A stretch of 64,000 bases of DNA from Nicotiana tabacum (Eukaryota > Streptophyta > Magnoliopsida > Solanales > Solanaceae). Shown here one piece after another: positions 700 through 48,378 of the stretch. A model generated the notes under the pieces. It was not told the DNA's origin, searched no databases, and saw only the letters and a program-made list of their open reading frames with translations. Positions within the stretch are counted from its first letter, which is position 1. Every line of letters begins with the position of its first letter. Where the stretch lies: contig NC_134096.1 of NCBI RefSeq assembly GCF_000715075.1, positions 122,084,643-122,148,642 on the forward strand, written 5' to 3'. The translations under genes and the position numbers were made by a program.

Positions 700-955
700 G
701 GTGTAACCACACCTGCGAGGTGGGGGCCGCAGAAGTGACCACGAGGGTCGCAGAAGCGGCTTAGGCTAGAGATGGCTGGGACCGCAGATGCGGCCGAGTT
801 CCGCAGAAGCGGGACCGCACCTGTGCACGTGGAGCCGTATAAGCGGATGGGGGCCGCAGATGCAGAGATGAAGGGTCTGGAAGAGGACCGCAGAAGCGGT
901 AGAGTGGCCGCACCTGCGGAGCCGCAGAAGCGACTATTGCACCGCATGTGCGAGG
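700..955. repeat. GC-rich near-palindromic word array in LTR family A
   Basis: About 250 bp built from 12-15 bp words of the form CCGCAGAAGCGG, CCGCAGATGCGG and CCGCACCTGCGG, each nearly self-complementary and rich in CG and CNG sites. It lies immediately upstream of a TATA box. Open frames through it (such as 772-1068) are composition artefacts. Confidence 0.85.
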
Positions 956-972
956 ATCATTGGGCAGTGAGG

Positions 973-983
973 TTTTATAAAAC
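973..983 (+). promoter_or_regulatory. TATA box of LTR family A
   Basis: The sequence ttttataaaac follows the GC-rich array and matches the equivalent place in the sister LTR (minus strand, 18357-18368). It fits a U3/R promoter that drives transcription rightward. Confidence 0.6.
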
Positions 984-1798
984 GGGGTTTTTGTCTCATT
1001 TTCACTTCATTTCGTCCATGGGAGCCGATTTTGGAGCACTTTTGGAGTGCCATCTTCATCAACTATAATGGGGTAAGTGATTTCTTCACATTGTGAGTTA
1101 AATACATGATTTTTATATGAATGCAAGCATGAAAATTTGTAGAAAATATTTTGACAGTTCCGATAGGTTCGTATCGTGAATTGGGACTTGGGCGTATGCC
1201 CGAAATCAAATTCCGAAGTCCCTAGCCCGAGATATGGAATTTTGATAAAAAATTAAAAGTTTAAGTTCAAATAGTGACCGGATGTAGAATTATGTGCAAA
1301 CGACCTCGGAATATAATTTTGATGATTCCAACAGCTCCGTATGGTAATTTTGAACTTAGGAGCGTGATCGAAATTTTATTTGGAAGTCCGTAGTGAAATT
1401 AGGCTTGAAACGGCTAAAATAGGAATTTAAAGTTTGGAAGTTTGACCAGGGAGTTGACTTTTTTGATATCGGAGTCGGAATCCAGTTCTGAAAATTTTCA
1501 CAACTCCGTTATATCATTTATGACTTGTGTGCAAAATTTGAGGTCAATCGGACTTGATTTAATAGGTTTCGACATCGAATGTAGAAGTTAAAAATTTTAA
1601 GTTTCATTAAGCTTGAATTGGAGCATAATTCGTGGTTTTAGCGTCGTTTTATGTGATTTGAGATTTCAAATAAGTTCGTATGATATTTTAGGACTTGTTG
1701 GTATATTTGGTTGAGGTCCCGAGGGCCTCGGGTGAGTTTCGGATGGTTAACGGATCAAAAATGGGACTAAAACAGCTGCTGCAAATTTTCTTCTGCTG

Positions 1799-2065
1799 TG
1801 CTATCGAGCCCTAAAATCGAAGGCCAGAAATTGAGCCCAGAAATCGAGCCGAGGATCGAAGGCAAGATCGAAGGCCATAAAGATTGAAGCCATGATCGAT
1901 AGCCAGGATCGATGGCTGTGATCGAGCCCCAGGGTCGAGGGCCATGATCGAAGCTATGATCGAAGGCAATGACCGAGGTCCATGATCGAGGACCATGATC
2001 GGACTCCCCATGATCGGACTCCTATGATCGAGGTCCAGGATCGGACCCCATGATCGAGGTCACCC
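1799..2065. repeat. gatcgagg/gatcgaagg word array in LTR family B
   Basis: About 20 irregular repeats of a 12-16 bp word with core CATGATCGAGG or GATCGAAGGCC. It occupies the same position, upstream of the TATA box, as the CCGCAGAAGCGG array in family A, but its word is entirely different. Confidence 0.85.
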
Positions 2066-2091
2066 TGGACAACTTTGTAAGTTATAAAAAC

Positions 2092-2100
2092 AGGGGGGCT
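2092..2100 (+). promoter_or_regulatory. TATA box of LTR family B
   Basis: ttataaaaa lies about 25 bp after the gatcgagg array and about 70 bp before a gtaagtg splice-donor-like word. The arrangement is parallel to family A. Confidence 0.55.
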
Positions 2101-2997
2101 TCGTCCTATTCGCCATTTTTAACAACTTGGAGCTTGAGCAGAGGCCATTTTTGATATAATTTCAAGGAAAAATATTAGGGTAAGTGTTCTTAACTCAATC
2201 TTGGTTAGATTACCCGAATCCACTACTGTTTTTAACATTTAATTGGTGATTTAAGTTGGAAAATTTTGAAAACCCTCTTGGATAGATTTGAGGATTTGAG
2301 GGTCGAATCGTTATTGGAATTTAGTCATTTTGGTATGGTTAGACTCGTGGTTGAATGTGCGTTCATATTTCGTAACTTTTGCCGGATTTCGAGACGTGGG
2401 CCCCACGGGTCATTTTTGAGTTAATTTCGGATATTTTATTGAAAAATATAGTATTGTTTTTATAGAATTAATTCTATAATTTTTGTTGACTGTATCGAAT
2501 TAATTATGACTAGATACGAATCGACCGGAATCGAAAAATCGAGGAAAAAGCATACTACTTGGTTAAATTGGAGCAAGTCGAGGTAAGTGACTTGTCTAAC
2601 CTTGTGTGGGGAAAATTTTTCCTAGGATTGGTATTAATTCTAATGTGATGAAAGTCGTATACACGAGGTACACAGACTAAATGTGAAGGATTATGATCAC
2701 TGTTGCATATTAATTATATTATTAAATCTTGTTATATTATCCATCATTGATTTGATTTGTATACTTTAAATTTGCTTGACCTTTTCCTGCTAATTGTTTT
2801 ACCTGTTTGGTTGAAACTTGGTTTCTTTTATTCTGTGCATTATTTGAAATTGATTTTCTTTAAATTAAATATTTTTAATATGAAGTATTTGACATTTTAA
2901 ATTTGGTATTGAAGCAACGTATTAAAGATTTTGAAATATTATTTTGCTAAATTATTTATTCCTGAATATTTTTGTAAGATTTTTGTACTCATTGTGA

Positions 2998-3107
2998 TGG
3001 AGCCGTGGGCTCTTTATTGTGAAAAAATATTATTGATGATTTATGTTGGCATGAGCCGTGAGCTCTTTATTGTGAAAAAATATCGTTGATTTATTTTGGC
3101 AAATTAA
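2998..3107. repeat. Two-copy tandem repeat inside the LTR
   Basis: Two adjacent copies of a roughly 55-bp unit beginning gagccgtgggctctttat, with a few differences. Further short gcggt-gataagg words follow to about 3350. Confidence 0.7.
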
Positions 3108-4009
3108 AATATTTGGGCACTTGAGGTGCAAATTATGATATATTGTGATATTGATACACATGCGGTAGTATAAGAGCTGGGTATTGAAACGCATGCGGTG
3201 AGATAAGGGTGGCTTGCTACGCGTGGCTAGTAGGGGGAACTACTAGAAGTCATGCGGTGTGATAAGGATGGCTAAAACACGGGATGCTATTTCGGAAAAA
3301 ATATTTTCTTTAAAATAAATTGTGAAGGCTCCCGCGGTGAGATAAGGAAATGAGATATTGTGAATTTATTTATGATTTGGGACTACGAGGCGGTACCTCG
3401 GTAGTGCCCTTGTTGATATTGATTTATGGCCATAGTTGCCTTCGATTAATTGTTGTGATTTTCATAAAGTTGAAAGAAATTCTGTTTTGATTCAACGAGA
3501 TATTATTTGCAATTATTTGGTGTCATTAAATGTGACATACTATTTGATTCATTTCCATAGTTATTTTATCTTATTCAATTGTTTAAATATTTTTCCATGT
3601 CATTATCTATTCTCCAGTAGGGCCTGACCTGACCTCGTCACTACTCTTCCGAGGTTAGGCTTGACACTTACTGGGTACCGCTGTGGTGTACTCATACTAT
3701 GCTTCTGCATATCTTTTTGTGCAGATCCAGGTACATCTTACCAGTCTAGACGTCAATGAGTTACCTGCGCACGGAGACTTCGAGGTATATCTGCCAGCGT
3801 CCGCAGATTCCGGAGTCCCCTTCTATCATTTTTATGTTGCTTCCTTATTTTTCTTTAGACCTTGATACATAGAGACATTAAGAATAAATTTTTAGAAGCT
3901 TTTCTACCGGGTTTTGGGAGTTGTAATTATTTGAATTGTAGTTTATTTATTTTAGATATTTATGATTATTCCGCATTGATAGGCTTACCTAGTCTTAGAG
4001 ACTAGGTGC

Positions 4010-4048
4010 TATCACGACCTCCTACAGAGGAAATTTGGGGTCGTGACA
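4010..4048. repeat. Terminal stem-loop of the LTR
   Basis: ATCACGACC and GGTCGTGA form an inverted repeat around a short loop at the extreme LTR end. The same arrangement is at 16656-16695, 23925-23960 and, weaker, 45547-45580. Confidence 0.7.
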
Positions 4049-5366
4049 ATACCTTCTCTCCAGTTGCCAAGATTTCATATGTTCGACTGCTTATCTCCTT
4101 AGCAGCAATGCATCAATGGTCACTTCATCAACTGAATATTAAAAATGTTTTTTTGCATGACGAGCTCGCTGAGGAGGTTTATATGGAGAAACCTCCTGGG
4201 TTTGTTGCTCAGGGGGAGTCAGACTTCGTATGTCGTCTAAATCGTTCGCTATATGTCCTCAAGCAATCTCCGAGAGCATGGTTAGGTAGATTTAGCTCTG
4301 TTGTCCAACAGTTTGGGATGTCACGGAGTGAAGCAGATCACTCTATTTTCTATCGACATAATGGTCTAGAAAAGAATATTTATTTGGTCGTTTATGTTGA
4401 TGACATTGTCATAACTGGAAATGATCAAGAAGGAATATCTCAGCTAAAACAATATCTATTCAAATATTTTCAGACCAAAGACTTTGGGGAAGTTAAAGTA
4501 TTTTTTTGGGAATCGAGGTAGCACAATCTAAGACAGGCATTGCTATCTCATAGAGAAAATACGCTTTGGATATACTTGAATAGACATGCATGTTAAACTC
4601 TAAACATGTTGACATTCCTATGGATCCAAATGTCAAACTCGTTCCTGGACACGGGGAGCCATTGGAAGACCCTAGCAGATACCGAAGACTACCGAAGACT
4701 GGTCGGTAAACTAAATTATCTCACTATCATACGACCGGATATTTTATTTGCAGTAAGTGTGGTTAGTCAGTTTCTCCAAGCTCTGTGCAAAGATCATTGG
4801 GATGCAGTATTCATATTCTGAGATACATAAAAAGAGCTCCGGGACAAGGACTGATATATGAAGACAAAGGTCACAAAAACATTATTGGATATTCTGATGC
4901 AGATTGGGTAGGTTCTCCATCAAATAGACATTCTACTTCTGGGTATTGTGTCATGATTGGAGGGAATCTAATCTCTTGGAAAAGTAAAAAGCAAGACGTT
5001 GTTGCTAGATCTAGTGCAGAAGCAGAATATCGAGCTATGACCCTTGCCACATGCGAGCTTATTTGGTTGAAACAACTCCTCCTAGAGTTAAAATGTGTCG
5101 AATTCAAATAGATGAAGCTTATATGTGACAATCAGGTTGCCCTTCATATTGCTTCTAATCCCGTTTTTCATGAAAGAACAAAACATATAGAGGTGGATTG
5201 TCATTTTATTCGGCAGAAGATCGAGTCCGGATGCATTGCTACCAGCTTCGTCGGTTCAAATGACCAATTGACAGATGTGCTTACTAAGTCCCTTAGAGGA
5301 GCTCGGATTGAACACATTTGTAGCAAGCTTGGAGCATATAACATGTACGCTCCAACTTGGGGGGGG
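4049..5366 (+). pseudogene. Ty1/copia polyprotein, 3' half: reverse transcriptase and RNase H
   Basis: Encodes the copia reverse transcriptase from its conserved beginning (TFSPVAK), through VYVDDIVITG with the catalytic YVDD motif (about 4393-4424), to a copia RNase H (SDADWVGSPSNRHSTSGY, about 4890-4945) and the usual C-terminal part with the [10 protein letters not shown] motif. It is broken by frameshifts near 4500 and 4800 and a stop near 5109. It has no gag, protease or integrase. The 5' edge abuts an LTR end and starts with ATACC, the same five bases that end the opposite-strand copia half at 27125-27129. The LTR matches too, so the two are inferred to be halves of one element. Confidence 0.93.
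5357..5366 (+). other. Polypurine tract of the copia element
   Basis: cttgggggggg directly precedes the TG start of the 3' LTR and fits a plus-strand priming site. Confidence 0.75.
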
Positions 5367-5551
5367 TGCTAGATATTGTCAGAGACTATTTCAAATATTA
5401 GATTGTATGTCGGATAGATAGTCAAATATTGTAGGTAGAAGGCGTGATCTCAGGGATGCATTGTTGACTTATGTGTCTAGCTTTTGTGTATATATTCTCG
5501 ATGTAATCTATCATTTTAAGTATGAAGTAAAATACACTTATATTATTCACA
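5367..5551 (+). repeat. Copia 3' LTR (185 bp)
   Basis: Starts TGCTAGATATTG and ends ATTATTCACA. Apart from a few substitutions near its end it is identical to the LTR at 30022-31240 once the MULE insertion there is removed. A short LTR of this size is usual for small copia lineages. The flanking bases caagc do not match the other LTR's flank. Confidence 0.9.
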
Positions 5552-6361
5552 CAAGCAAAAGACAGTAGCTATCCGATATGAGATCTTATCACTACACTAG
5601 TACCTCTGTTTTTCTGATTTCTTTAGATTCAACTCCTATTCTGCCTAAGATATTTTCTTGTTGACTCTTCATTTATCAGTGGCTATTAATTGTTATGTTG
5701 CTTTACTCGAGTTATCCCTCCTCTTGAAGGCCATAACCATCTAAAAACTTGACTTTCAATGGTTAGTTTAGTTACAAAAAGGAACTCTCAAGTCAAAATA
5801 ACTATTGAAAACAGCATAGTTTCAAGGTATATACATACTTATATTGCAGCTCTTCTTTTCTTTGGCTGAAAAATGTTGTAACGTGGGAGATATATTGGAT
5901 TCATTTGTATATTTAATAGGAAGGATACTTAGAAAAACCAGATAATGGAAAGGCTCTCTTAGTTGCTACACAAGAGAGACAAGTATAAAATGTGATGGAG
6001 TAGTATATAAGATTGGTAAAGAATGAGGAAAAAGGAAAAATGCTTTAGTAATGATTATGCACGAAAGTGGAGGATAAAACTTAAATTCTTAAAGCTAATA
6101 TTAATCATTAAGAAAAAGAAAAAGGTACACAAGCTAGCTATCTTCGGCTTTTAGTAACAGTAGTCTCCAAAATTATACTAGTAACTTCTCGAAGTATGAA
6201 GTAAATGAGCTTCCATGCCTTTAACTTCCTAAAGCAGCACAATCTTTTGCAATAGCATTCGAGAAACAATTAGTGATGGTTAATGCCGGTGAACTTCATA
6301 ACTTGTTTTTCTCTTTGCACATAGGATTTGGAGAGTACCTGTTGTCAATTGATTAGGTCGT
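5552..6361. other. Spacer, no gene seen
   Basis: AT-rich sequence between the copia LTR and the 3' end of the receptor kinase. It should hold the kinase 3' UTR on the minus strand. I see no further coding segment. Confidence 0.5.
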
Positions 6362-9300
6362 TCAATAATGGGAAGAAAGCCGATCTTTGATCTTTTTCAA
6401 TGCTGCTACAACTTCAGTCATGTTCATCCTTTCACAAGGAGATTTAGCTGTGCAATTCATGGCTAACTCCATAACTGATGCCACACATTGCAACTTTTCA
6501 CTTATGTTTTCTTCATCTAGTGTTAGTAAGTCGGCATCTATGATTTGATCCAGCTTATCAGGAAGTGAACTATGCACGCAGCTTCGCAAATCCAACTCTC
6601 CCATGAACATTTCATCATTAGGTTTCTTCTTCGTAAAAGTTTCCAGCAACATGATACCATAACTATAAACATCAGACCTCTTCGATATAAGACCTTCCAG
6701 TCCATACTCTGAAAATGAAAATTAAATGTCAGTAATTAATTTATAATATGTTAATCAAAAACCTTGTTACACCTTAAATAAAAAACTCACCTGGGGCAAT
6801 GTAACCAATTGTGGCAAAGGTTGTAGTATGAGCAATAGATTCTTCTTTTGTTAAGAGTTTTGCAATGCCAAAGTCAGTCAGGTGTCCCACCATGTCTTTA
6901 TCAAGTAAGACGTTACTAGGCTTCAGATCACAGTGAATAACAGGTACCGGGTAACCATGATGGAGATATTCCAGAGCAGATGCAACATCAACCATGATAT
7001 TCAGTCTTTGCTTTATGTTTAAAAAATACTCTCGAGAATATAGCAACTTGTCTAAGCTCTCATTTGGCATGTACTCAAGTACCAATGCTTTAAAATCCAA
7101 CTTACAACAGCTGCTAATGATCTTGGTGAGATTTCTGTGACGAAGATTCCGCAAAATTTCACATTCTCTATCAAAGGTTTGAAATGTACCTTCCATCTGC
7201 ACATTGAAAACTTTAACAGCTACTATCATCCCATCTGCCAATGTCCCTTTGTAAACAGAACCAAAACTTCCACTACCTAGCAAGTTATTTCCATTAAAGT
7301 CCTGAGTTGCTCTTTGAAGATCATAATAGGAAAATCTTTGTGGTGCTACATCTGGCAACCACTCATCATCAGCTTTGATTGTTTTACCTTGACGTCTCAT
7401 CAACACGAAAACTATTACTGAAGCAAGGCCTACTAAAGCAATAACAGAAGAGACAACGACGATAAATATCACGATTCTTTTCTTTGATTTTGCATGACAG
7501 GCCTGGACATGCATTTGAGGGTTACCACATAATCCTTCGTTTGACACGAAAGACTGGTAAGGGAGATCAGCAAAAGGTCCTCCATTCGGAATTTCCCCGT
7601 GTAACCTATTGAATGAGACATTAAAGAAGTTTAGTTGCTTAAGTGCTTCTAATGACTTTGGAATAACACCAGACATATTATTATATGAAAGATCCAATGC
7701 TTCCAAATTTATCAGTTCTCCAAGTGTATCAGGAATAGATCCTTCAATCCTGTTATGAGCAAAAGACAGTTGAGTCAATTTCTGTAGACTTCCTAATGTA
7801 TTAGGAATGTTGCCTGAGATTTGGTTCCAGGAAAGATCCAGAATTATTGCAGCCTTGAGGTTTCCAACTTCAAGTGGTAAAGAGCCATTGAAGATATTAG
7901 AAGACAAGTTCAGCTTCAAGATGTCTTTGAGGTTCCACAGACTTGAAGGTATGCCAGCGGTGAAGTTGTTGGAATCAAGATAAACCTCCCTTAGAGAAGT
8001 CACATCCCCCAAGCATCTAGGAATACTTCCCTGCATTTGATTTTGTGAAAGGTTTAACAAACCCAAGTTGGATAGCTCACACAAACCATTTGGGAAAGGA
8101 CCACTTATTCTGTTTGCTCCAAGTGAAAACTGTTGAAGTTTTTTCAAAGAACTTATTGTCCTGGGGACAATGCCAGTCAAGTCATTGTCTTCCAGCTTCA
8201 AATAAGATAAATTTCTCAAATTTCCGATTTCAATGGGAACATGACCCCTGATGTTACATCCATCTGCCTCAAATATTTGAAGAGAAGAAAGATTGCCGAT
8301 GGACTTTGGAAGCATTGCATTTAGGGGATTGAGAGACAATATCAATTCTCTTAAGTGTTTACAATTGGCCAAAGGAGTAATAAAGCTCAGTGGTGAAGAT
8401 TCACTAGTAAAGGAGTTGCCTTGCAAGTTGAGAATTTCAATAAGTCTTAAGTTTCCTAGAGAGTCAGGAACTGAACCTGTGAGTTCATTTGCACTGAGTT
8501 CAAGAATGGTAAGCTTAGACAAATTTGAGATAGAACTAGGTAAAAAGCCATTAATGTTGTTTGCACCTAGAAAAATTCGTTCAAGATTGGGTAATCCATG
8601 CCCTATAGTGGAGGGAAGATTACCTGAAATGTGGTTCTGTGTGAGTGAAATGGATACAAGACTTGACATATTGAAGATACTAGCAGGGATCGACCCACTA
8701 AAGGTATTGAAATCCAACTTAAGCTGCAGCAACTGTTGAAGGTTACCGATCTCATCTGGAAGTACACCTGCAAAATTCAGTAAGATTATTATCAGTAGAG
8801 GTATTTGAAGAACTGGAATTCTAATATCTTGTCTGATTAAATATTATTCAATACCTGTCAGGTTATTGACTCCCAGATCAAGTACGTTAAGCATATTCAA
8901 ATTTCCGACCTCTCTTGGTAGAGGTCCTTCAAGCTTGTTGTCCCACATTGATAAAACTTGAAGTGATGAAATGTTGAATATGGTAAAAGGAATTGAGCCC
9001 GTTAATTTATTTTTTTCCATGCCCAATTGCTTCAAGTTATAAAGATGACCAATCTCATCAGGAATTGTGCCTGTCAAATTGTTAAGCAGAAAGATTTAAA
9101 AAAAAAATTCATGAACTGATTTAAGTAACGTTGCTGGATTAGAAGTAATTTAGCTCAAAATAAAACTAGAGCTGCCTCTGTACTCAATGCTACAAGTTGA
9201 GTTCTTTCCAGGGATAATTGGTAAAAAAAAAAAAAAAAGATACCTTGTAACTTGTTAAACCCAAGAGCTAAGATTTGCAACAGCTGTAATTTCCCAAGTT

Positions 9301-10156
9301 CTCTTGGAATTGCTCCAATCAAGTTATTTTGCAACAACAATAGGACTTGAAGTTCCGAGCACTCTGATATACTTCTTGGTATCTCTCCACTTAACATGTT
9401 GAAGTTAAGCCCAAGCCTTTGCAATCTTGGAAGGCGGCGACACAAATCAGATGGAAGATCGCCAGTTAAACCAGCATTTCTGAGATCCAAATATTCCAGT
9501 GTCGAGATGTTGAATATGGAGAGCACATTAGAGCCATTGAGCTTATTGAATCCAACGCTCAACCATTTCAAACTCTGAAGAGTGGCTATTCCTATAGGAA
9601 TATTTCCTTCCAGATCGTTGTACCTCAGATTCAAGAATCCAAGATTCTTCATGTTTGAGATAGAAGAAGGAATGAACCCACTGAAACTATTGTTTTCAAC
9701 GGCGAACATTTCAAGGTCTTGTAAGTCACCTAGAAATTTAGGAATTTCTCCAGTTAAGTTGTTGAAACTAAGATTAATGGCTCTCAATTTTTGCAAACGA
9801 GACAGCTCTGGTGGAAGTTCACCTTGGAAATTGTTGTAGCTTAGATCAAGTGAAACAAGAAAAGAAAGGTTGCCAAGTTGTGGCGGGATGGTACCCGAAA
9901 AGCCCATATCTGAAACATTGAGTACAGTAACTCGTTGATGACGAGAGCCACAAGCGATCCCATTCCAGTTACAAACAGAGGTTGAAGAAGACCAGTTTGT
10001 TGAAAGAATGCGATAAGGGTCTGAAGTGATGTGGGCTTTCAACGCTAGAAGAGAAGTTTGATCAGTGCTGATATTCATGGCTAAGCATGTTGCTATAACG
10101 TGAAAAAATAATGAAAATGCCGGAAGCTGAGTTTTCTCGAGTAATGATATCCTCAT
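6362..10156 (-). CDS. LRR receptor-like serine/threonine kinase, subfamily XII (EFR/Xa21-like, non-RD)
   Basis: Four exons: 10156-9244, 9070-8855, 8767-6791 and 6708-6362, with GT-AG borders. They total 3,453 nt in frame, giving about 1,150 residues. In order: signal peptide (about 1-27), LRRNT_2 domain (TDQTSLLALKAH), more than twenty 24-residue LRRs, a membrane segment (about 805-832, VIFIVVVSSVIALVGLASV), and a kinase (about 865-1145) with GSGSFGSVYKG, VAVKVF, HCDLKPSNVLL and DFG. The HCD in place of HRD marks a non-RD kinase, usual in plant pattern-recognition receptors such as EFR, FLS2 and Xa21. A plasma-membrane immune receptor is likely but the ligand is unknown. The upstream ATG at 10216 would add 20 residues before the signal peptide, so I chose 10156. 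Exon 2 is exactly three LRRs (216 nt). Intron 1 carries a 16-base A/T run near 9223. No lesion is visible. Confidence 0.93.
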
Positions 10157-10324
10157 TTTGTTTGAGCGAATGGGAGAAAATTGTTTACGATTATTGCAAA
10201 AAATGTAGTGGTACATTTAAATATTTAAAGTAAGGAGTCACATCCCAATTAGATAAGAGATGAGCAATTTCACATCACTTTGTTAGTATGGTCTCAATTG
10301 TAAATGTGAAAAGTGTGATGTCGC

Positions 10325-10336
10325 CATTTATATATC
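10325..10336 (-). promoter_or_regulatory. Probable TATA box of the receptor kinase
   Basis: On the minus strand this reads tatataaatggc, about 170 bp upstream of the chosen ATG. The distance suits a short 5' UTR. A weaker TTTAAATA-type site lies near 10220. Confidence 0.45.
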
Positions 10337-11900: not shown

Positions 11901-14560
11901 ATGGATGTTCCGCCTTTACATGCCGGACCTTCCTCGCTAAAGCTACTGTTGCTACATGCCGAGCATAGGTTTTTCCACATATGGGAGGGACAGTAACTGG
12001 CCCAGACGTTCCGCGCCAAGAGAGTAGACGATATATGGGACTTTCTTAGGGCCCACCATCTCCATTCCCGTATAGTCAGACGCCTCCGGTATATGTGTTT
12101 TTATAGGATTATGGAGATCAGCCGGCTGCAGCTGGATTGGTCGTTGATCACGGTTCTGATAGAGCAGTGGCGACTGGAGACGCACACATTCTATTTTTCC
12201 ATTGGCGAGGCCACTATCACGCTTCAGGACGTGGAGGTCCTGTATGGGCTGCCCGTTGATTGACACCATGTTGCTTTGCCAAATACATCAGAGAGTATAC
12301 GGGTTTGCAGTACCTGTAGATGCTGCAGCGGCTCACCGATTTCCAGCCATCGGATGAGACTGCATTGATTCGAGCTAGTCGTCTGCAGTTGGCGCCTGTC
12401 CGGCAGCATTTGGAGGCGATGCACGCTGACATCACAGATGATACACCGGAGCTTCATATTCATTGGTACACGAGGTTGCTACTGCTGCTTATGTTTGGAG
12501 GGGTTTTGTTCCCTAACACTTCGGGAAACCTAGTCAGCTTGAAATTTCTTCATCATCTTGAGCGGCTATATGATTTACATCATTACAGCTGGGGTGTTGC
12601 TGTTCTCGATTACTTGTACAGGCAAATATGCCGAGCGAGCATAGGCACCCAACGAGACGTTGCAGGATTTTTGCCGCTGCTGCAGGTGAAAACATAGTCG
12701 AATACTCTCTTCATTATAACATACCTAGTAAAAATATACCTTAAATTTTACGTCCACATTGTATATTAGGTTTGGGCCTGGGAGCGGTTCCTGGAGTTGC
12801 AGCCACATCTACCACATTTAGCTCCGGATGCACCACCTCCGTTTCTCTCTTTAGCTAGGAGGTGGGTTGATAAGTGAGGATATGGACGGGAGTACGAGGC
12901 TCGACATAATCTCCCTTATTACAGGGATTTGTTGGATTTGCTGGAGGGCGCATAGGTAAATGTATACCTAAGTTTACTTGGCCTAGCTTTATATGTGTTG
13001 CGTATACTCACGTTTCCTGTTTTTACTTAATAGTTCATTTGGAGTCCATACGGCGACGAGCTAATAGCTGGTTTGCCCGATTATTGCTCTACAGGCCGAA
13101 TTATGTGGAGCTCTTCCGTCCCGTTGATGCGTCTCGATATTGTCGAGCATCATGCTACCGAGCGAGTACTTCACCAGTTTGGTCGCCCGTAGCTTGTACC
13201 GCCACCGCCCGCTTGGCATGACACATTACCATCGGGATGATCGTTCGAGGGTAGACCAGACATATGTGGCATGGCTAGAGGCGCAGATTGATATTTGGGA
13301 CCAGCGATATGACCTGATCCCCCCCTCCACCTGACCGGTCGGATGGTCATCATGAGTATATGGGTTGGTACCGCAGCGTTACCCGACTTTTTGTCGGGAA
13401 TCCCATTTATCGCGTTAGCGCTCGGTACGTTCCATACACCGAGAGGCACGAGACACTGGTATGTTATTTGGTATACTTACTTATAAGGTTAACCTAGCGT
13501 TCCGTAATTTATATTTTACATGTTGTGAAGGCTATTGGCCTACATATGTTCCACCAGTTGGTACTACAGATGCAGTAGAATATCGGTGAGGGATCACCCG
13601 CTTTGCACGAGTATGGCTGACTGGTTACCGATCTGGCTTCCCATACATTGAGGCGTTCCCGAGATGATGAGCCCTTAGAATACGAGGCTGAGTATGTGGC
13701 GCCAGAGCAGCACCATCGTGGGCCACCAGTGGAGCCGGAACGTGGTCGATGTGGCAGGCGTGCCCAGATAGGTAGGGGTGTTCCATGAGGTCATGGGGGT
13801 CGACGAGGAGGTGGTCCCCAGCAAGGGGCCGTTGAGGCACCTATTGAGGATGTTGGAGTTGATCAGCCGAGTGAACTCCATAAGCCAGACCATGCTCATA
13901 GTGATATGCCACCATTCAGCCTTCAGCTTACTCCGGGGACTTAACAAGTGACCCTGTCAGGTCCATTGTTGATCGCGGGCACGACCATTACGCGAGAGGA
14001 TTGGGACCAGTATTTTCCTGACCCATCGGCCGTTGCTGATGATCGTCCGACACGAGATGTGGATAGTGGGCGTCGGCTGAGTTATGGCTCATTATCGAGG
14101 GATGCATAGGATCTTTCACAGACGCAGGTTTGTTTGTATTACTATTATTTATATTTTTTTATCTCATTGATTAGTCATAAATATCTAAATATTTTTTTAA
14201 GGCTTTATCCTCGTCCGTCACGGAGGCCACCTTGTGCGATAATGACATGGCTGCGACGAATGATTATATTCAAGAGTCTGACGAGACAATGGTAAGAAAA
14301 TTTAAATTTATGTGACTTAACACGTACATTACTAATACATATTTCATATACTAAAATATCTTATTATACTGTAGGTTATTGCTGTATCTACTGCCCCTTC
14401 TCTCGAGCCTGCCAGCCCTACTGACGATCATACTGCAACGCATTCTCCGATAAAGAGGCGACGTGATGAGGATGATCCTGATAGTGTAGCCGGGCGGGAT
14501 GGGATGCGCCTCATGCCAATGACTGCTTTAAATCATACAGGATGTGGGACACATTGATTT
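11901..14560 (+). pseudogene. Plant mobile domain (PMD, transposon-type) gene, decayed
   Basis: From ATG 11901 the frame encodes the N-terminal part of a PMD protein (PF10536, often annotated 'protein phosphatase 7 long form homolog'): DIWDFLRAHHLHSRI, then QLDWSLITVLIEQW, then DVEVLYGLPVD. The 12320-12697 frame continues with ILHWYTRLLLLLMFGG-like sequence and SWGVAVLDYLYRQIC. Pieces at 12772-12880 (WAWERFLELQPHLPHL) and 13030-13460 (YVAWLEAQIDIWDQRY) follow, apparently as separate exons. A low-complexity Arg/Gly/Pro tail runs to about 14560. In-frame stops (near 11994 and 12259) and frameshifts (near 12330 and 13070) make it a pseudogene. PMD genes travel with MULE elements, which fits the neighbours. 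Confidence 0.75.
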
Positions 14561-14799
14561 TTTATTTTATTTTATGTACATATGATATTCAGTAAATAAT
14601 AGCAAATATTTTTATTGTTTATATTATATGAGCATTATATTTTTATTTCTCCAGTTCTTCGTTATTTTAATAATACAACACAAACACAAACATAGCAACT
14701 TAATATAATTTAAATTCAGTACAACTAATGAAAATACATGACACGGAAAACATAAAGATAAAATACTACACTCAACACATACATGTGTTTGTTTAGTCA

Positions 14800-15153
14800 C
14801 TACCGCCTATTATTCTCTGCTCCAACCACTTAAAATTTCTCTTCCAACCTATTTTTTCCTTCTTCCGCCTCTTTTAATTTCTCCTGCACTGCCGCAATTT
14901 CTCGTTGCATTTCATAGATCTGGCATTGGTATTCACCGTTCATATTCCAAACATACTACAAACATGATTTGTAGTATTCCTGGTTAATGGGTTCATCATA
15001 CCATTCCTCAAACATACATTGATTTTCGTCATTGCGTCCAAACAATTGTTGACATATCCAGTATCTGCACCCAACATTACCATCTGACCAACATGCCTTC
15101 AAAATCGCACGTTTGCCACAATAGCACCTTGGTTGGTCATTGCATCCAGACAT
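14800..15153 (-). pseudogene. zf-GRF zinc-finger protein with short coiled coil
   Basis: The minus-strand frame from ATG 15153 gives 65 residues with a GRF-type zinc finger: RCYCGKRAILKACWS followed by GCRYWICQ (PF06839). A stop after KSCL (14956) interrupts it, and beyond it the same strand encodes a charged coiled coil (EMQREIAAVQEKLKEAEEG) to about 14810, ending after a one-base shift. Such small GRF plus coiled-coil genes are common hitchhikers in plant MULE and PMD elements. The stop could instead be an intron border. A second, more decayed copy lies at 26281-26660. Confidence 0.65.
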
Positions 15154-15252
15154 TTGTTAATGCAAGAAAAATGAAAAATTTATGGAAAATTTTGCTATTT
15201 GTTTTGGTTAAGCGCAGATAATAACTAAAATGCACTAGTTATTTATAGGCAA

Positions 15253-15616
15253 GACAACATACATAATGTAGTATTTTACCGCGCTATGCTTCGCGTGTTA
15301 AAGATTCTTTCTGATACAAAACATCTTTTCCAGAAGATAGCTTTTGCAGGCGAGCAACTTTTTAGGTCGACAAGATAACACACATAACGTAGTGTTTCAT
15401 TGCGCTATGCTTCGCGTGTTAAATATTCTTTTAGGTACAATACAGCTTTTCCAGAAGTTAGCTTTTGTAGGCGAGCAACTTTTCAGGTCTACAAGACAAC
15501 ACACATAACGTAGTATTTTACCGCGCTATACTTTGCGTGTTAAAGATTCTTTCGGGTACAATACAGCTTTTTCATAAGATAGCTTTTGCAGGCGAGCAGC
15601 TTTTCAGGTCGACAAA
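15253..15616. repeat. 121-bp tandem repeat, three copies
   Basis: Successive copies are offset by exactly 121 bp: the word aggcgagca begins near 15348, 15469 and 15590. Each copy contains cgcgctatgcttcgcgtgtta and cttttgcaggcgagcaactt, with a few differences. A degenerate relative is at about 26740-26930, again beside a zf-GRF remnant. Confidence 0.9.
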
Positions 15617-15773
15617 ATAATTATTTTTTTTAAATGGGTTTACGTTAGATTGTTGTACTGAAGTATTGATGTTAAATATCAATAAGATTTAATAGCAATG
15701 AAAATATAATTTTATTTCATACATTCTGTAAGATAAACAAGTACATACACTTATTACAACCACATTACGGAAA

Positions 15774-16655
15774 CAAAACACTACGTGTATCCTTGATAGT
15801 TGGGCACATTAGATGAACTTTCACCAGGAGTTGGATTACCACCGCCACCCAAATCAGCTGAAGGACATTTACGACGGTCGTGTCCTGTTTGCGAGCATAT
15901 GCCACATTTGCGCGCATAAATGGTATCACCAACATCCATTTGGTTCCGTATATGCATTCTTTTTTCCACTTATCATTGACGTACATAGTCCTTGTTACAC
16001 ACCATTTTAAATGGTTCCGGCGGCCAATAATGCTCAGCACCCACTGGCTGTAACTTCCCACTATATGTGTTTAAGTATGCAGCAAAACCATATTCTTTAT
16101 CAACGTAGTTGGTTGCACCTAAACCTGTATGTTGAAAGCACTTGATGGCATGTGAGCACGGCATATGGTAGATGATTCATTTCCCACAAGAGCATAACCT
16201 TCTGGATTCATTTACGGTATGTGTATTATTCCCCCGATTTTGATGGATAGCGGTGCGAACTTCAAAATATTTCGCTCATTGCAATACTATAAATATGAAT
16301 GCCAATATGTTCGCCGCCTGTATTTCTTAAATCTTTTCATTGGTATTGGCGTAAATTCAACACCCCTTTCCATCAATGACGATGCACCTCTAGCCCTTTC
16401 AACAAACCTCTACGCCATCTGCTTGAATGACATCCGCACCATGGCAGTGAAAGGTAAACCACGTGCAGACTTCAATAACCCGTTGAAAGACTCTAACAGT
16501 TTGGTAGTCAGAATTCCCCATCTTGTGCCACCATTCGCATGCAAAGTTCACTTGTCAATCTCATATCGCATCAACCAACGATAGGCTCCCTCGTCTTCCT
16601 GTCTGATAGATTCCTTGCGCCTCCTGAATTTATACTCTTGGTGATCTGTTGCAGC
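15774..16655 (-). pseudogene. MULE transposase, C-terminal part
   Basis: Read leftward from 16655: the conserved MuDR-type segment after the catalytic core (a TKLLESFNGLLKSAR-like stretch, about 16500-16440, then RFVERARGASSLMERGVEF), a SWIM zinc finger (LCSCGK..MPCSHAIKCFQ, about 16200-16130), then a CCHC knuckle (CGICSQTGHDRRKCP, about 15905-15860) and the C-terminus near 15781. There are stops near 16560, 16300 and 16175 and a frameshift near 16000. The N-terminal half and the DDE catalytic residues are missing because an LTR element inserted at 16656. That half is predicted to lie left of this window (see findings). Confidence 0.85.
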
Positions 16656-18356
16656 TGTCATGACCCAAAACCCATTAAAGGTCGTGATGGCACCGGACAC
16701 CGCTGTAAGGCAAGTCAAAAATAAATACTTAATTTGGTTCTTATTTTAATATTATTGAAATCATATTTCCTTCAATTAAATGGTAAAAGATGAAATTTAC
16801 AAAATAAATAATAATATTTTTAGCAATTCCAATATCGTGCAACCCATAGTCGCCCCAAAACCCGGTGTCACAAGTGTATGAGCCTCAACTAAGAATGTAA
16901 AATAAAATACAATATATGTCCGAAATACAAATGGAACAGGAAAATATAAATACTCTAAAGGAGACTTTGCTGGCTGCGGACTCGTAACGTGGAATGCAGC
17001 TCACCTAAGTCCCTGCAATAACCGCGCCTCTGCGCCCACAAGGCCGCTAGGCATGTATGCACCTGCACAAAAATGTGCAGCAAGTGTAGTATGAGTACGT
17101 AAATCAACGCGTACCCAATAAGTATCCCGCCTAACCTCGAAGAAGTAGTGACGAGGGGTCGGCTCCGACACTTACTATGGGGCTATAAATAAAATGTCAA
17201 TGATAAAAATAAGGATGGATTACGTAGAACGACTGTAAGCTCAATGTCGTGAAATCAGTAAACAATTTTTTTGTTCATAATAAATTTCCAAATTTATTTT
17301 CTATTATTTACCAATTTATCTCAGGCCGAGGAGGAAATATCATTTATCGTAAATTGCAAAGCAATCAAGTTCAATCATGCGCAAATCATGTCGAGGTCGT
17401 ACGACCCAATCCAACATAATATTGAAATTGTGCACTGCCGGAGGGTCGAATGTTGCGAACCATAGATGCATCTATTTATTCTGCTGAGGCGTTTGACCCG
17501 TTCCACAAAAGTAAACACAATCAAACAATCAATTAAGAATTCATTAAGGAGCAATTACCCAAGGAAAATGTCACTTTTCTTTTAACGGTCAAGAAAACAA
17601 GGTTAATCTTTTTTTTTCTTTTTTTTTGAAATTTATTTACCAAGTTCGATATAATTTAAGCAATTTAAATTGACAATAAGGTTACAATTATCACAAGTAT
17701 GGCATGATTTTGGGGTCCTAAACTATCCGGACTTAAGCATAATAGTTGCTACGCACGGACTCTCGTCACCCCGTATATACGTAGCCCACAAAAATAGAAG
17801 CACATATTGATTCAGTTCACCTATAGGGTAAATTTCCTCTTACAAGGTTAGGAAGGAGACTTACCTTGCTCCGAAGTTCCTTCATTGGCTCCCAAGCCTT
17901 TCCAATAACTCGAACCGATGCTCAACGCTCCTAAACTAGTCAATAAATGTGCAAATCCATAAATATATACTCTAATACTCGTTATAATCCAATTTATAAC
18001 AAATTCCAATTCCGTTAAAAGTCGATAAAAAATCACCCTCGATCCCACGTGCCCGGATTCCGAATATTTTCGAAGATAATCATTACCCATAGCACTACGA
18101 ACTCCAATATATATAATTTATTCTCAATTTCATGGCCAATTCGTGATCAAAATCCAAGAATACCAATATCTAGGTTTTTATTCAAAATCCCAAATTTCTA
18201 CAAATTTTCATGCTTGAATCCATGTAAAAATCATGTATTTAACTCAAAATGTGAAGAAATCACTTACCCCCTTATAGTTGTTGAATATGGCACTCCAAAA
18301 ATGCTCCAAAATCGGCTCCCATAGACGAAATGAAATGAAAATGAGCCAAAAACCTT

Positions 18357-18368
18357 GTTTTATAAAAC
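18357..18368 (-). promoter_or_regulatory. LTR TATA box
   Basis: gttttataaaac, palindromic in its centre, directly downstream of the GC-rich word array when read on the minus strand. Same position as 973-983. Confidence 0.55.
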
Positions 18369-18380
18369 CTCATTGCCCAG

Positions 18381-18665
18381 CGATCCTCGCACCTGCGGTG
18401 CAATAGTCGCTTCTGCGGCTCCGCAGGTGCGGCCACTCTATCGCTTCTGCGGTCCTCCTCCAGACCCCTCAGCTCCACATCTGCGGCCCCCATCCGCTTT
18501 TGCGCCTTCGCTTCTGCGGTTCCACGTGCGCAAGTGCAGTCCCACTTCTGCGGAACTCGGCCGCATCTGCGGTCCCAGCCATCTCCAGCCTAAGCCGCTT
18601 CTGCGACCCTCGTGGCCGCTTCTGTGGCTCCGCACCTGCAGACCTTACCTCGCAGGTGCGGTTAC
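18381..18665. repeat. GC-rich near-palindromic word array
   Basis: Words such as CCGCTTCTGCGG, CCGCATCTGCGG and CCGCACCTGCGG with varied spacers. Homologous to the array at 700-955 but differing in the order and number of words. Frames through it are spurious. Confidence 0.85.
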
Positions 18666-19534
18666 ACCAGAAGACAACAGCCTCAGCACCTCCATAAAGC
18701 CAAATTCAATTTGTTAACCATCCGGAATCTACCCGAAGCCCCCGGGACCCCGTCCAATTATACAAACCAGTTCCAAAACACATTACGAACTTAGTCGAGC
18801 CTTTAAATCACATCAAATAACATCGAAATCACGAATCACAACCCAACTCAAGCTTAATGAACTTTAGAACTTTAACATTCGATGCCGAAACCTATCAAAT
18901 CACGTCTGATTGACCTCAAATTTTGCACATAAGTCATATTTGACATTACGGACCTACTCCAACTTCCAGAATCGGAATCCGACCCTGATATCAAAAAGTC
19001 CACCTCCGATCAAACTTCTCGAAAACCTTCAAATTTCTAAATTTTTCCAAAAGACCCCAAAATGACCTACGGACTTCCAAATCCACTTCCGGACGTGCTC
19101 CCAATACCATAATCACCATACGGAGTTATTTACAGACTCAGAATCCCAAATAGACACCGATAATATTGAAATGCACTTCAACCCAAATTGATGGAATTAT
19201 TCCAAAAGGCTAACTTCCACAATATGCGTCGAAACGCTCCCGGGTCATCCAAAACCCGTTCCGGACATACGCCCAAGTCCATAATCATCATGCGAAACTG
19301 TTGGAACCTTCAAATCCCGATTCCAAGGTCGTCTACTAAAAATTTACACTTTAGTCAATTCTTCCAACTTAAAGCTTCCGAAATGAGAATTTTCTTTCTA
19401 AACCAACTCCGGATTTTCCCGAAATTCAATTCCGACCACACGTACAAGTCATAATACCTGAAGTGAAGCTTCTTAGGGCCTCAAACCCGCTGAACGACGC
19501 GCTAAATCTCAAAAAGGCCGGTCGGGTCGTTATA

Positions 19535-19550
19535 TTCTCTCCCACTTAAA
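19535..19550 (-). other. Polypurine tract of the LARD-like element
   Basis: Minus strand reads tttaagtgggagagaa directly before the 3' LTR start, the expected place and composition for a PPT. Confidence 0.75.
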
Positions 19551-22500: not shown

Positions 22501-23909
22501 CATATCTGACCTCTCACTGGATAGCTAGCAGAATTCTTCGTAGAAGCTTCGTCAACACCATGTGACCGCTAACCTACTTGTAAGAGATAACCCACCGGTG
22601 GAAATTCCATGCCGACATCTTCCAACATCACTGCACCGGGTACAATTACTACCAAATTAGCAACCCCTCCTGAGTCCGTGCTAATTCGCCATCTGTACAA
22701 GTTCGTTCACTCCTCATGGACATCATCTAAAAGGTGCGACAGTACAATTCCAATCCGAAGTCATGTTGTACCCTTCTTTACATCAATCAACTCTTTCCTG
22801 TCGTATCCAATCTCCCCCGTACAATAGCCAATATTCCAAATAAATTCCATAGACCTAGCCACTGCCCACCATGAATCCCAAATCACTCTAAACTTTCCTC
22901 AAGCGTGTAGTCATCCTACCAGAGAACCCATATGTTACTCTACCACTCTCCTACTTTGGTCAAACCCTCTTCTTTAAGAAACTACTCGACTTCTAAATAT
23001 TTAACCACAGCAAGACACCTCCCACATGTCCTTCCTCATACTTCGCCGCCTACTTGTTGCCTTAAATCATTATCTACCTTTGTAGCATTTGAACCATTAG
23101 ATCGCTAACAACTTTAAACCTCTTTAAAGATCATCTTTCCCGAGCCATCCACACCAAGAACATTGATTCAAATCCTAAACCACCGCACACCGCGATCTCT
23201 GATAGCCGTTTCTATGGCACTATTTCACGCTACTCTGCCCCATAGGCGAATTGAAGAAAATCATAACACCAACGAACTTAACGTATTCAACCAGGACAAT
23301 GACACCACATCACAGATGAAAATTCCACCACGCTCGAAAATACCAAATCTCATTACTCCATCAACCTAAACTTGAAAATTCGCAGTCCGATTTCCTTTCC
23401 TTTGCCGGAAATAAGATATTGAATCTCTGAATCATGCACTGAGTAAACCTCCTTCCATGTCATTCACTGCTTCGATGCCTAGATAAGCATCCTACCATTT
23501 CACCAACATTGGGCGATAGCAATGCGCGAATCGTCATGACAATCAATGCTAACTCTCCAAAACCTTAGGAGGTACTGATACTGAGCTGAAACGACAGAAC
23601 GACTTTCCACAAGGTGACGGCAATAGCCCAATATATTACGCAGGGAGAAACATCTTGCACCACATCTGTAGTTCCATTATAATTCCTCGGTTCCAAATTG
23701 ATAGCAAGTGTTTCACGTCGCATAAGATTGAATAAGAAAGAAATAAAGGCATAAGACTTAGAGGGATCGAATCGCACGATGAGGATTCAAGAAGGGAAGT
23801 TCTCGTAACAGCCTTGTAGCCTCTCGAAGATAAGTACAGACGTCTCCGTATCGATCCGAAAGACTCTACTAGACTCGCTCATGACTCGTGAGACCTAAGT
23901 GAATCTAGT
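19551..23909 (-). mobile_element. Internal region of a non-coding LTR retrotransposon (LARD-like)
   Basis: About 4.36 kb between a PPT (19535-19550) and a PBS (23910-23921), flanked by 2.9-kb LTRs. No frame exceeds about 92 residues on either strand, and none resembles gag, protease, RT, RNase H or integrase. Long LTRs, valid priming sites and a non-coding interior define a LARD (large retrotransposon derivative), which would depend on a coding relative. It is possible that a coding ancestor has decayed beyond recognition, but the absence of any RT motif in 4.4 kb argues for a non-coding interior. Confidence 0.75.
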
Positions 23910-23921
23910 GCTCTGATACCA
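23910..23921 (-). other. Primer binding site, initiator Met-tRNA type
   Basis: Minus strand reads TGGTATCAGAGC three bases after the LTR end. This is the standard plant tRNA-iMet PBS. It fixes the element's orientation and shows that the flanking repeats are LTRs and not TIRs. Confidence 0.9.
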
Positions 23922-23924
23922 TGT

Positions 23925-25466
23925 TGTCACGACCCAAAACCCATTAAAGGTTGTGATGGCATCGGACACCGCTGTCAGGCAAGCCAAAAATAAATACTTA
24001 ATTTGGTTCTCATTTTAATAATTTTGAAATCATATTTCCTTTAATTAAATGGTAAAAGATGAAATTTACAAAATAAATAATAGTATTTTTAGCAATTCCA
24101 ATACCGTGCAACCCATAATCGTCCCAAAACCCGGTGTCACAAGTGCATGGGCCTCAACTAAGAATGTAAAATAAAATATAACATCTGTCTGAAATACAAA
24201 TTGGACAGAAAAATATAAATACTTTGAAGGAGACTTTGTTGGCTGCGGACTCGTAATGTAGAATGCAGCTCGTCTAAGTCCCTGCAATAACTGCGCCTCT
24301 GCGCCCACAAGGCCATTAGGCATGTATGCACCTGCACAAAAATATGCAGCAAGTGTGTATGAGTACGTAAATCAACGCGTACTCAGTGAGTATCCCACCT
24401 AACCTCGAAGAAGTAGTGACGAGGGATCGGCTACGACACTTACTATGGGCTATAAATAAAATATCAATGATAAAAATAAGCATGGATTACGTTGAACCAC
24501 TGTAAGCTCAATGTCGTGAAATAAGTAAACAATTCTTTTGTTCATAAGAAATTTTCAAATTTATTTTCCATTATTTAACAATATATCTCAGACCGAGGAG
24601 GCAATATCATTTATCGTAAATTCCAAAGTAATCAAGTTCAATCATGCACAAATCATGTCGAGGTCGTACAACCCGATCCAGCATAATATTTAAACTGTGC
24701 ACTGCTGGAGGGTCGAACAATGCGAACCATTTATGCATCTATTTAATCTACCTAGGTGTTCGACCCGTTCCACAAAAGTAAACACAATCAAACAATCAAT
24801 TAAGAATTCATTAAGGAGAAATTACCCAAGGAAAATGTCACTCTTCTTTTAACGGTCAAGAAAAAAGGTTAATCTTTTTTTTTCTTTTTTTTTTTAGAAA
24901 TTTATTTACCAAGTTCGATATAATTTAAGCAATTTAAATTAACAATGAGGTTACAATTATCACAAGTATGGCATGCTTTTAGGGTCCTAAACTACCCAGA
25001 CTTAAGTATAATAGTTGCTACGCACAGACTCTCGTCACCTCGTGTGTACGTAGCCCCCACAAATAGAAGCACATATTGATTCAGTTCACCTATGGGGTAA
25101 ATTTTCTCTTACAAGGTTAGGAAGAAAACTTACCTTGCTCTGAAGTTCCTTCGCCGGCTCCCAAGCCTTTCCAATAACTCGAACCTATGCTCAACGCTCC
25201 AAAACTAGTCAGTAAATGTGCAAATCCATGAATATATACTCTAATACTCCTTATAATCCAATCTATAACAAATTCCAATCCCGTTAAAAGTCGATAAAAA
25301 ATTACCCTCGGGCCCACATGTCCGGATTCCAAAAATTTTCGAAGATAATCATTACCCATAGAACTACGAACTCCAGTATATATATATAATTTATTCTCAA
25401 TTTTGATGCCCAATTCGTGATCAAAATCCAAGAATTCCAATTTCTAGATTTTTATTCAAAATCCCA
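23925..25466 (-). repeat. 5' LTR of the LARD-like element, inner part
   Basis: Starts TGTCACGACCC on plus and follows the LTR at 16656 base by base (with scattered differences) until the word aaaatccca at 25466. There the homology stops and LINE sequence begins. The rest of this LTR is inferred to be 1-1145, which ends two bases short of this break. Confidence 0.85.
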
Positions 25467-26250
25467 GAAAGCAGACAATATGTGGGTAAAGTGGGTTAAC
25501 TATATTTATATAAAAAGACAATCATGGTGGCAATATAAGCCACCAAATGACTGTAGTTGGTACTGGAGGAAGATATCTAATATAAGGGACAAATTCAAGG
25601 CAGGATACATAGAGAATGACTGGCTAACACAAACTGGGAAGTACTCAATTAGTAGTGGCTATGAATGGAAGAGAGGAGTACAAAGGAGATGGCCAAGTAG
25701 CAGATGAGTATGGAGTAAGCATAATGTACCTAAAAACAGTTTTATTTGCTGGTTGGCAATGCAGAACATACTTTTAACAAAGGAGAGAATTTTCACAATG
25801 GGAGTCAGCCAGATGATAAATGTGTAATATGTGATCAAGATACTGAAACAGTGCAACATTTATTGTTTGAGTGGCATCTGTCACAATCATGCCTCAACAA
25901 CATGCTAGACTGGATGGGAATAGAAGTCAGGAACAAAAAATATATTGGGTTGTGGAAGAGAATGGCCAGGAAGATAAAAGGAAGAATGTGCCGTGCATTT
26001 GTTGCAGTTGTATTGGTAGCACTGATATACAATATATGGAAAGAAAGAAATGAAGCGCTATGGAAGCAGCGAGTCCCATGTCCCCACACAATATGTGCAC
26101 AGATAAAGCAAGAAAGCAGATTAAGATTTCAGGCAAGCTGGAAAGGAAGACAAAATAGCATAGAAAGGACATGGATAGAAGGACTATACAGATGAACAAA
26201 TCAAAGACAGACATCCAACAAGGAGAGCTAGAGTGAGGAATACTTGTAAA
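25467..26250 (+). pseudogene. LINE fragment, C-terminal zf-RVT domain
   Basis: Encodes the C-terminal end of a plant L1-type LINE ORF2: WYWRKISNIRDKF, then GKYSISSGYEWKR, WSKHNVPKNSFICWLAMQN, a CVICDQDTETVQHLLFEW zinc-binding segment (zf-RVT, PF13966), and a LIYNIWKERNEALW tail. There is a stop at about 25706 and a frameshift near 25790. The endonuclease and reverse transcriptase are absent, so the copy is 5'-truncated or excised from a larger LINE. No clear poly(A) tail or target duplication was found. Confidence 0.88.
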
Positions 26251-26274
26251 TAAAAGTAGAGATAAGGAATAGTC

Positions 26275-26931
26275 TTATATCATATCTTCTTCTGCCTATT
26301 TTAGTTTCCCCTGCAATACCGCAAATTGTTCTTGTAGTTTCACGATCTGGAGTTCATATTCACTGGTCAGATTCCAAATATGTAGCAAACATGATTTGTA
26401 GTATTCCTGATTAATGGGTTCATTATACTATTAATCAAAATCACATTTCTTTTCATCCTACCAATGAGAGAATAACACAAGACTATTAATTAACATATTA
26501 TATAAAAAGTATTAACAAATATTTCTTCCAAGAATAATAACTTATAACTTGTTTACACATCCAATGCTTGCGCCCCAGATTGTAATTTAACCAACATGGC
26601 TTCAAAATCGCATGTTTGCAACAGTAACATCTTGGTACGTAATTGCGTCCAAACATGTCGTAATGCTTGAAAATGTAAAATTAATGAAAAGTTTTTCTAT
26701 TCATTTCGTTACGACGCAAATAATAACTAAAATGTGCGAGGTTTTTATAGGCAGCTAAGAGTGATTTTAGGTTATATAACGCATATTGGTGAGGCGCTAT
26801 GTTTCGCGTGATAATAATTCTTTCGGGTACAAGTGGGTCCAGCTTTTTCAGTACGACAACTTTTTCAGGTCATCAACTTTTTCAGGCCGACAACTTTTTC
26901 ATGTCGACATGACAATACACATAGTGCATAT
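26275..26931 (-). pseudogene. Second zf-GRF remnant with 121-bp-repeat-like tail
   Basis: 26281-26430 matches the coiled-coil part of the zf-GRF gene at about 14862-15000. 26549-26656 encodes RCYCCKHAILKPCW, a finger in which the CG of the usual CYCG is now CC. 26740-26930 resembles the 121-bp array at 15253-15616. Same orientation as the first copy. The segment ends where a family B LTR start begins. Confidence 0.7.
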
Positions 26932-27124
26932 AAAATATTGACCAAAGTCAACTCAATTGAGTTTAAAGCTCTAATTCATATTTTAATCTATTTTTCATAT
27001 AAAAACTTTCCAAAAAATTTTACGGACTGCGCACGCAAGTCGGGAAATAATAAATAGTACTTTTCGAGGTATTAGAATACATAATTAATTATTAAATTTA
27101 AAGATGACATTTTGGGTCATCACA
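26932..27124 (-). repeat. First 193 bp of LTR family B
   Basis: Minus strand starts TGTGATGACCC beside the copia coding sequence and runs to the word ggtcaatatttt. There it changes to zf-GRF/MULE sequence. 1146 continues it with atattttgacagttcc, so the two pieces share an AATATTTT word at the break. Confidence 0.75.
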
Positions 27125-30009: not shown

Positions 30010-30021
30010 GCTCTGATACCA
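30010..30021 (-). other. Copia primer binding site (tRNA-iMet type)
   Basis: Minus strand reads TGGTATCAGAGC immediately after the LTR end CA (30022). Confidence 0.9.
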
Positions 30022-44446: not shown

Positions 44447-44643
44447 TGGAAAGTAATAAATAAATTAACAGGAATCGATTAGAATATACCTCCAAAAGCA
44501 ATCATCCAAGTCTACGAGTATCTTCAGATTTGGCTATACTTCCAATCTACTCCAAGAATTTCAAATGCTCTTTCAAACAAAGTTAATTCCAGAAACTGGC
44601 AGAGGACAGAAAGAACCAATGAAGAATTCCTACAAAGGACCCC

Positions 44644-45541: not shown

Positions 45542-45546
45542 TTTTC

Positions 45547-48373: not shown

Positions 48374-48378
48374 TTTTC

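Follow-up and report, generated by a model that had tools for sequence, protein, structure and literature searches.

How did two retrotransposon sequences, each cut in two with its parts on opposite strands, come to lie as they do in a transposon-dense region of the tobacco genome, and what kind of repair left them there? The question is raised by a stretch of 64,000 nucleotides of Nicotiana tabacum (assembly GCF_000715075.1, contig NC_134096.1, positions 122,084,643 to 122,148,642 of the forward strand), hereafter the window, which is plant DNA dense in transposons, with repeats of a Solanaceae-like style, and contains no N letters. The most likely answer, as read from the letters of the window, is that about 24 kb carrying a receptor-kinase gene were inverted after two breaks within old transposon copies. 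If a single interval is turned back, all the elements that the joints divide are restored: a copia element with the long terminal repeat (LTR) inserted in it, termed LTR2, and a further LTR, termed LTR_A.

The first split pair comprises the following features:

1146-4048, plus strand: 3′ part of LTR2, ending GGGTCGTGACA; positions 1330-1759 are 72–73% identical to LTR copies A, B and C (introduced below)
4049-4053, plus strand: ATACC, copy 1 of the target duplication of LTR2, beside the LTR2 end (4048)
4051-5551, plus strand: copia reverse transcriptase (RT) half with the 3′ LTR (5367-5551); RVT_2 (PF07727), frames broken
26932-27124, minus strand: 5′ part of LTR2, starting TGTGATGACCC at 27124
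27125-27129, minus strand: ATACC, copy 2 of the target duplication, beside the LTR2 start
27125-31240, minus strand: copia gag-integrase half with the 5′ LTR; Pol_BBD and gag_pre-integrs, the LTR interrupted by an insert resembling a miniature inverted-repeat transposable element (MITE)

On its sequence this is a copia element interrupted by a solo LTR, LTR2, with its halves now oppositely oriented. Translated separately, the minus half closes with YGFDYDDT and the plus half opens with the same T, followed by FSPVAKISYVRLL (TFSPVAK...), so that the two are exactly in phase across the ATACC word, as a preliminary description of this DNA had claimed. In Pfam comparisons the plus half matches RVT_2 over 4051-4518 (E 3.5e-43) and the minus half matches Pol_BBD (E 2.5e-15) and gag_pre-integrs (E 9.1e-11) over 27953-28771. 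The RVT_2 profile is entered at position 54, and the beginning of the RT domain seems to be gone from the minus half through an internal deletion that leaves the joint untouched. The two copia LTRs, previously described as near-identical, are indeed 185 bp each; the identity is more exactly 97.3%, with five of the 185 positions differing, four of these in the final 23 bp.

Some further properties of the copia element may be recorded here. Its frames (4051-5340 and 27130-29480) are broken and the start of its RT domain seems to be deleted, yet its LTRs agree at 180 of 185 positions; the element was perhaps defective before it inserted. The sequence ACTTGGGGGGGG before the 5′ LTR (31241-31252) is identical to the stretch before the 3′ LTR (5355-5366), and is perhaps retained primer sequence from an insertion without normal integration. 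Within the 5′ LTR lies the MITE-like element (30060-31084, 1,025 bp), which ends with GGCCAAATACATAGACA in inverted orientation, carries an internal 180-bp tandem repeat and has the 9-bp direct repeat TACTTAAAA on either side. Mutator-like elements (MULEs) make 9-bp direct repeats of this kind.

The second split pair belongs to a family with four related copies in the window: A, which is split, B, which is intact, and C and D. By BLAST, LTR2 is an LTR of the same broad kind but more distantly related.

1-1145, plus strand: 5′ part of LTR_A, which forms the left inversion flank; 88.3% identical to 19360-18195 on the minus strand (BLAST), with 102 differences at 1138 sites
23925-25466, minus strand: 3′ part of LTR_A, a 5′ LTR; 91.8% identical to 18192-16656 on the minus strand (BLAST), with 115 differences at 1528 sites
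23910-23921: tRNA-type primer-binding site, after the 3′ part of LTR_A
16656-19534, minus strand: LTR_B, the intact 3′ LTR of the element of LTR_A, preceded by a purine stretch
16651-16655, minus strand: GCTGC, adjoining the LTR_A/LTR_B element on its 3′ side and expected to be its target duplication
about 45546-48378, minus strand: LTR copy C, a relative of A and B (BLAST)
from about 33.6 kb, plus strand: LTR copy D, a fragment related to A, B and C

LTR_A ends at 1145 on the plus strand with TGTAGAAA and resumes at 25466 on the minus strand. Mapped onto the intact copy B, its parts adjoin at 18195/18192 with zero overlap and about 2 bp missing, which bears out the continuation that the preliminary description had proposed; by our own estimate, the chance that two independent breaks in a 2,879-bp LTR would be no more than 3 bp apart is about 0.002. 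The divergence of the two parts from B (102/1138, or 9.0%, and 115/1528, or 7.5%) does not differ significantly (z about 1.34 by our own arithmetic), as expected for one LTR; copy C lies 21–24% from both parts. A primer-binding site follows A, a purine stretch precedes B and GCTGC follows B, so that the natural reading is a single element with A as its 5′ LTR and B as its 3′ LTR. The piece at 1-1145 completes that element, and about 174 bp more of LTR_A, preceded by the GCTGC partner, are expected to the left of window position 1.

Could these be fragments of different insertions that merely resemble split pairs? The LTR type is repeated in the window, which gives the idea a foothold, but an in-phase copia element with a 5-bp duplication, an abutment within 3 bp on LTR_B and compatible divergences would all have to be coincidental, and we regard this as scarcely credible. 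Pattern scans for relatives of the LTRs gave no match in genome_contigs or in viral_contigs, as did a two-part pattern for the LTR2 break in the same two collections, and blastn of the 3′ part of LTR2 against phages and plasmids gave none. A shorter LTR pattern had one match in viral_contigs and three in genome_contigs, all three in prokaryote metagenome-assembled genomes; these were judged to be chance.

The joints themselves tell against recombination between repeats. The first of them is simple:

1145/1146: proximal inversion joint, where LTR_A is joined directly to LTR2 and copy B continues differently

Measured from the LTR starts, the break in LTR_A falls at about 1.32 kb and that in LTR2 at about 0.2 kb, positions that are not homologous. 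When 200-bp flanks of the breakpoints are compared, exact matches reach 12 bp at most and inexact ones 13 columns (at 92%), and no match is listed between the two 200-bp flanks that meet at 1145/1146. Since the flank matches are short and the LTR positions non-homologous, both recombination between repeats and overlap-driven misassembly are unlikely. A chimeric assembly, with joints that are errors between repeated LTR copies, would account for the location of both breaks inside repeated LTRs; with no N in the window, with exact words of 12 bp at most to misjoin on and with a single flip that mends two unrelated elements, we consider it very unlikely. Recombination between inverted LTRs could likewise point to the relatedness of A and LTR2, but would have had to join positions that do not correspond and share no exact word above 12 bp. 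We return to it below together with transposition.

The second joint is not as simple, as a stretch of 1,465 bp separates the far end of LTR_A from LTR2:

25467-26931: probable filler (patch) at the distal joint, consisting of a part resembling a long interspersed nuclear element (LINE; 25467 to about 26285, plus strand) and a part resembling a MULE GRF gene (about 26286 to 26931, minus strand)

In the tentatively LINE-like part one 39-residue piece matches zf-RVT (E 2.7e-5, 25.2 bits, below the cut-off of 27.5), and a 79-residue piece has no match in Pfam; for a 153-residue frame of the filler Pfam gives only two unrelated models, below cut-off. The second part resembles sequence elsewhere in the window: by BLAST, 26286-26457 and 26549-26893 are 78.6% and 72.1% identical to 14859-15373, which is the GRF-like gene with upstream repeats of a MULE-like element, while the Pfam GRF model finds no match on the filler piece. 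At the outer edge the BLAST matches stop at 26893; MAFFT extends the alignment into a repeat unit and places the edge, 26931, between two genes of that element. We found no A or T run of at least 7 within 25467-26931, no recognised transposon end by comparison with the in-window MULE-like relative, and no target duplication of the stretch in LTR_A, where the only words shared around its edges are three of 4 bp and the two LTR_A parts do not overlap on B.

The preliminary description took this 1.46-kb stretch for an earlier insertion in LTR_A, and hence placed the inversion at 1146-26931. The single flip, the joint at 1145/1146 and the reconnection of both elements are well supported, but the far limit is not: the stretch behaves as filler, and 1146-25466 (24.3 kb) are the better limits for the flipped segment. 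Without a target duplication, 25467-26931 is unlike a transposon insertion, and the older-insertion view requires the inversion to have broken exactly on the edge of the stretch, so that filler laid down at the second joint is simpler. A plain transposon insertion was rejected as its origin on these two grounds.

The same description noted an 8-base word, AATATTTT, at both breakpoints, and suggested joining by microhomology. The word is present at both joints in opposite orientations. At the LTR_A break, the intact copy B reads TAGAAATTTGGG and not AATATTTT, and LTR_A therefore probably lacked the word originally, which tells against the suggested joining. When 35-base pieces of the window were paired at random, 1.7% of 20,000 trials gave a shared inverted 8-base word; AATATTTT is thus above usual chance, yet appears to be weak evidence of microhomology. 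On the LTR2 side, two ATTT words that match the ends of its parts are 22–23 bp apart in four of the four in-window relatives (A, B, C and D), and for this reason LTR2 has likely lost about 22 bp.

Two alternatives draw on this word. If LTR_A already held the 1.46 kb when 1146-26931 was inverted, and the ends were then joined at the 8-bp word by microhomology-mediated end joining, the inverted pair and its low frequency among random pieces would find a use; the coincidence of the break with the edge of an insertion that has no target duplication, the absence of the word from the intact LTR and the 22–23 bp spacing in all four relatives speak against this, and make it distinctly improbable. Alternatively, LTR2 may have been cut with an 8-base overhang which, once filled in, copied AATATTTT to both sides with no loss. 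This would be a compatible variant of inversion by break repair rather than a competitor to it: the word borders both LTR2 parts in the orientation expected, and the relatives used for comparison are of other subfamilies. It demands that LTR2 never had the 22–23 bp seen in A, B, C and D, and we hold it to be unlikely, though less so than the older insertion.

A cause in transposition is suggested by the MULE-like DNA in the filler, and a proposal cited in the available text of one report (PMC7474074) makes a vandal-type transposon responsible for the hk4S inversion of Arabidopsis. Alternative transposition of MULE or hAT type would be expected to leave transposon termini at both joints with a target duplication. 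Position 1145 is instead mid-LTR and not a transposon end, and the filler edge at 26931 falls between genes of the MULE-like relative. Taken together with recombination between inverted LTRs, for which the break positions given above do not match, such an origin is extremely improbable.

The best explanation of the event is thus end joining with filler DNA, and neither repeat recombination nor transposition. We think it probable that end joining sealed two double-strand breaks and captured a patch in doing so. Both breaks would have fallen on the same chromosome, in LTR_A and in LTR2 at the distances given above, and the 24.3 kb between them (1146-25466) would have been rejoined in reverse. 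At 1145/1146 the ends would have been joined with next to nothing between them (about 2 bp shared, judged by eye), whilst the other joint would have taken up the 1,465-bp patch (25467-26931) with its LINE-like and MULE-gene-like parts, and about 22 bp of LTR2 would probably have been lost. The sequence itself shows the two split pairs, the copia phase, the meeting of the LTR_A parts on the intact LTR and the missing target duplication; flip and patch as one event, the 22-bp loss and the repair pathway are what we infer from these remains. The order of events would have been the insertion of the A/B element into the MULE-like element, then of copia, then of LTR2 into copia, with the inversion last. 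A bolder version, in which one repair event both flipped the 24.3 kb and assembled the 1.46-kb patch as a mosaic, drawing on a LINE and on a MULE gene at unrelated sites, is possible but rather doubtful. Salomon and Puchta reportedly worked in 1998 on filler DNA at plant double-strand-break repair sites.

Several observations weigh against this account. The inversion is read from this one assembled window alone, and the 22-bp loss from four copies that belong to other, though related, subfamilies. The outer 5-bp duplication of copia does not match, with CAAGC after the 3′ LTR and ACTTGGGGGGGG before the 5′ LTR, and because of this mismatch the outer ends of copia give the inversion no independent support. 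The inner boundary of the filler at about 26286 corresponds to the last nine or so codons of the relative's frame and is not clearly cut through the gene; lying near the end of that frame, it lets a single captured piece fit as well as two. The in-window GRF-like copy (72–79% identical) is too diverged to be the donor of the filler. Finally, templates for filler come from cis more often than from trans in the available text of one study (PMC7156093).

Within the flipped segment lie two further features that bear on the locus:

6360-10216, minus strand: leucine-rich repeat (LRR) receptor-like kinase gene, limits and introns by eye; PF00069 and LRR models
12000-16650: MULE-like element with a plant-mobile-domain gene (plus), a GRF-like gene (about 14830-15156, minus) and the C-terminal part of a transposase (about 15770-16650, minus)

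The kinase gene matches PF00069 (E 1.7e-35) and LRR models in Pfam, and its best-scoring solved chains are those of GSO1 and FLS2. It lies inside the flipped segment, as had been described, with over 2 kb between it and the closer joint, and as it was turned as a block the joints are not expected to affect its protein. In the MULE-like element the plant-mobile-domain gene is recognised by PMD (PF10536, E 1.5e-15), the GRF-like gene by the GRF model at E 0.15 only. Of three pieces of the transposase compared with Pfam, two had no match and one had two weak zinc-finger matches below cut-off (E 0.095 and 0.2); the names of the GRF-like gene and of the transposase part are tentative and taken from characteristic motifs. 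Elsewhere in the window, 59272-60010 is a near-perfect tandem duplication with a period of 392 bp (99.4% over 347 bp by BLAST) in an apparent gypsy-type element, and 42206-44464 is a long open frame for a CACTA-type transposase (Transposase_21, E 2.5e-101 in Pfam).

How does the locus compare with what is known? In the available text of the reports concerned, fillers at rice transposon excision sites range in size between a few bp and several kb (PMC5023962), a 50-bp filler in maize was copied from two sites (PMC2686159), 10 of 14 joints were loss-free in engineered two-break inversions made by CRISPR reversion of hk4S (PMC7474074), and in Brassica napus no families are more abundant than copia and gypsy in inverted sequences and at inversion breakpoints (PMC12599057). 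A literature search gave no report recognised as this locus, which says little. Against this background the tobacco locus, most likely real, is ordinary in its kind of break repair and unusually legible and well preserved. Where transposons are nested and carry their target duplications, a single genome is enough to read an old inversion, with no outgroup, and to assess each base of its joints. If confirmed, the locus would give a clear case from nature of an inversion with captured DNA filling its second joint; if the one-event mosaic were true, it would document, naturally and to the base, how DNA from several loci was captured while an inversion formed.

Like the Arabidopsis hk4S inversion, as far as the available text of that report describes it, the tobacco inversion lies in transposon-rich plant DNA, and MULE-like DNA stands beside one of its breakpoints; the vandal model differs in that no transposon terminus is recognised at either tobacco breakpoint. 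With the fillers of plant double-strand-break repair, again in the available text (PMC2686159, PMC5023962, PMC7156093), it shares unrelated DNA at a repaired break and no target duplication, whereas the tobacco filler sits at an inversion joint and has, for part of its length, only a diverged relative in the window. The CRISPR-induced reversion of hk4S, in the portion of the report available (PMC7474074), is alike in its one flip, two new joints and small losses, with one joint nearly precise. The tobacco case differs in being natural, in lying within nested transposons and in carrying a 1.46-kb patch at one joint.

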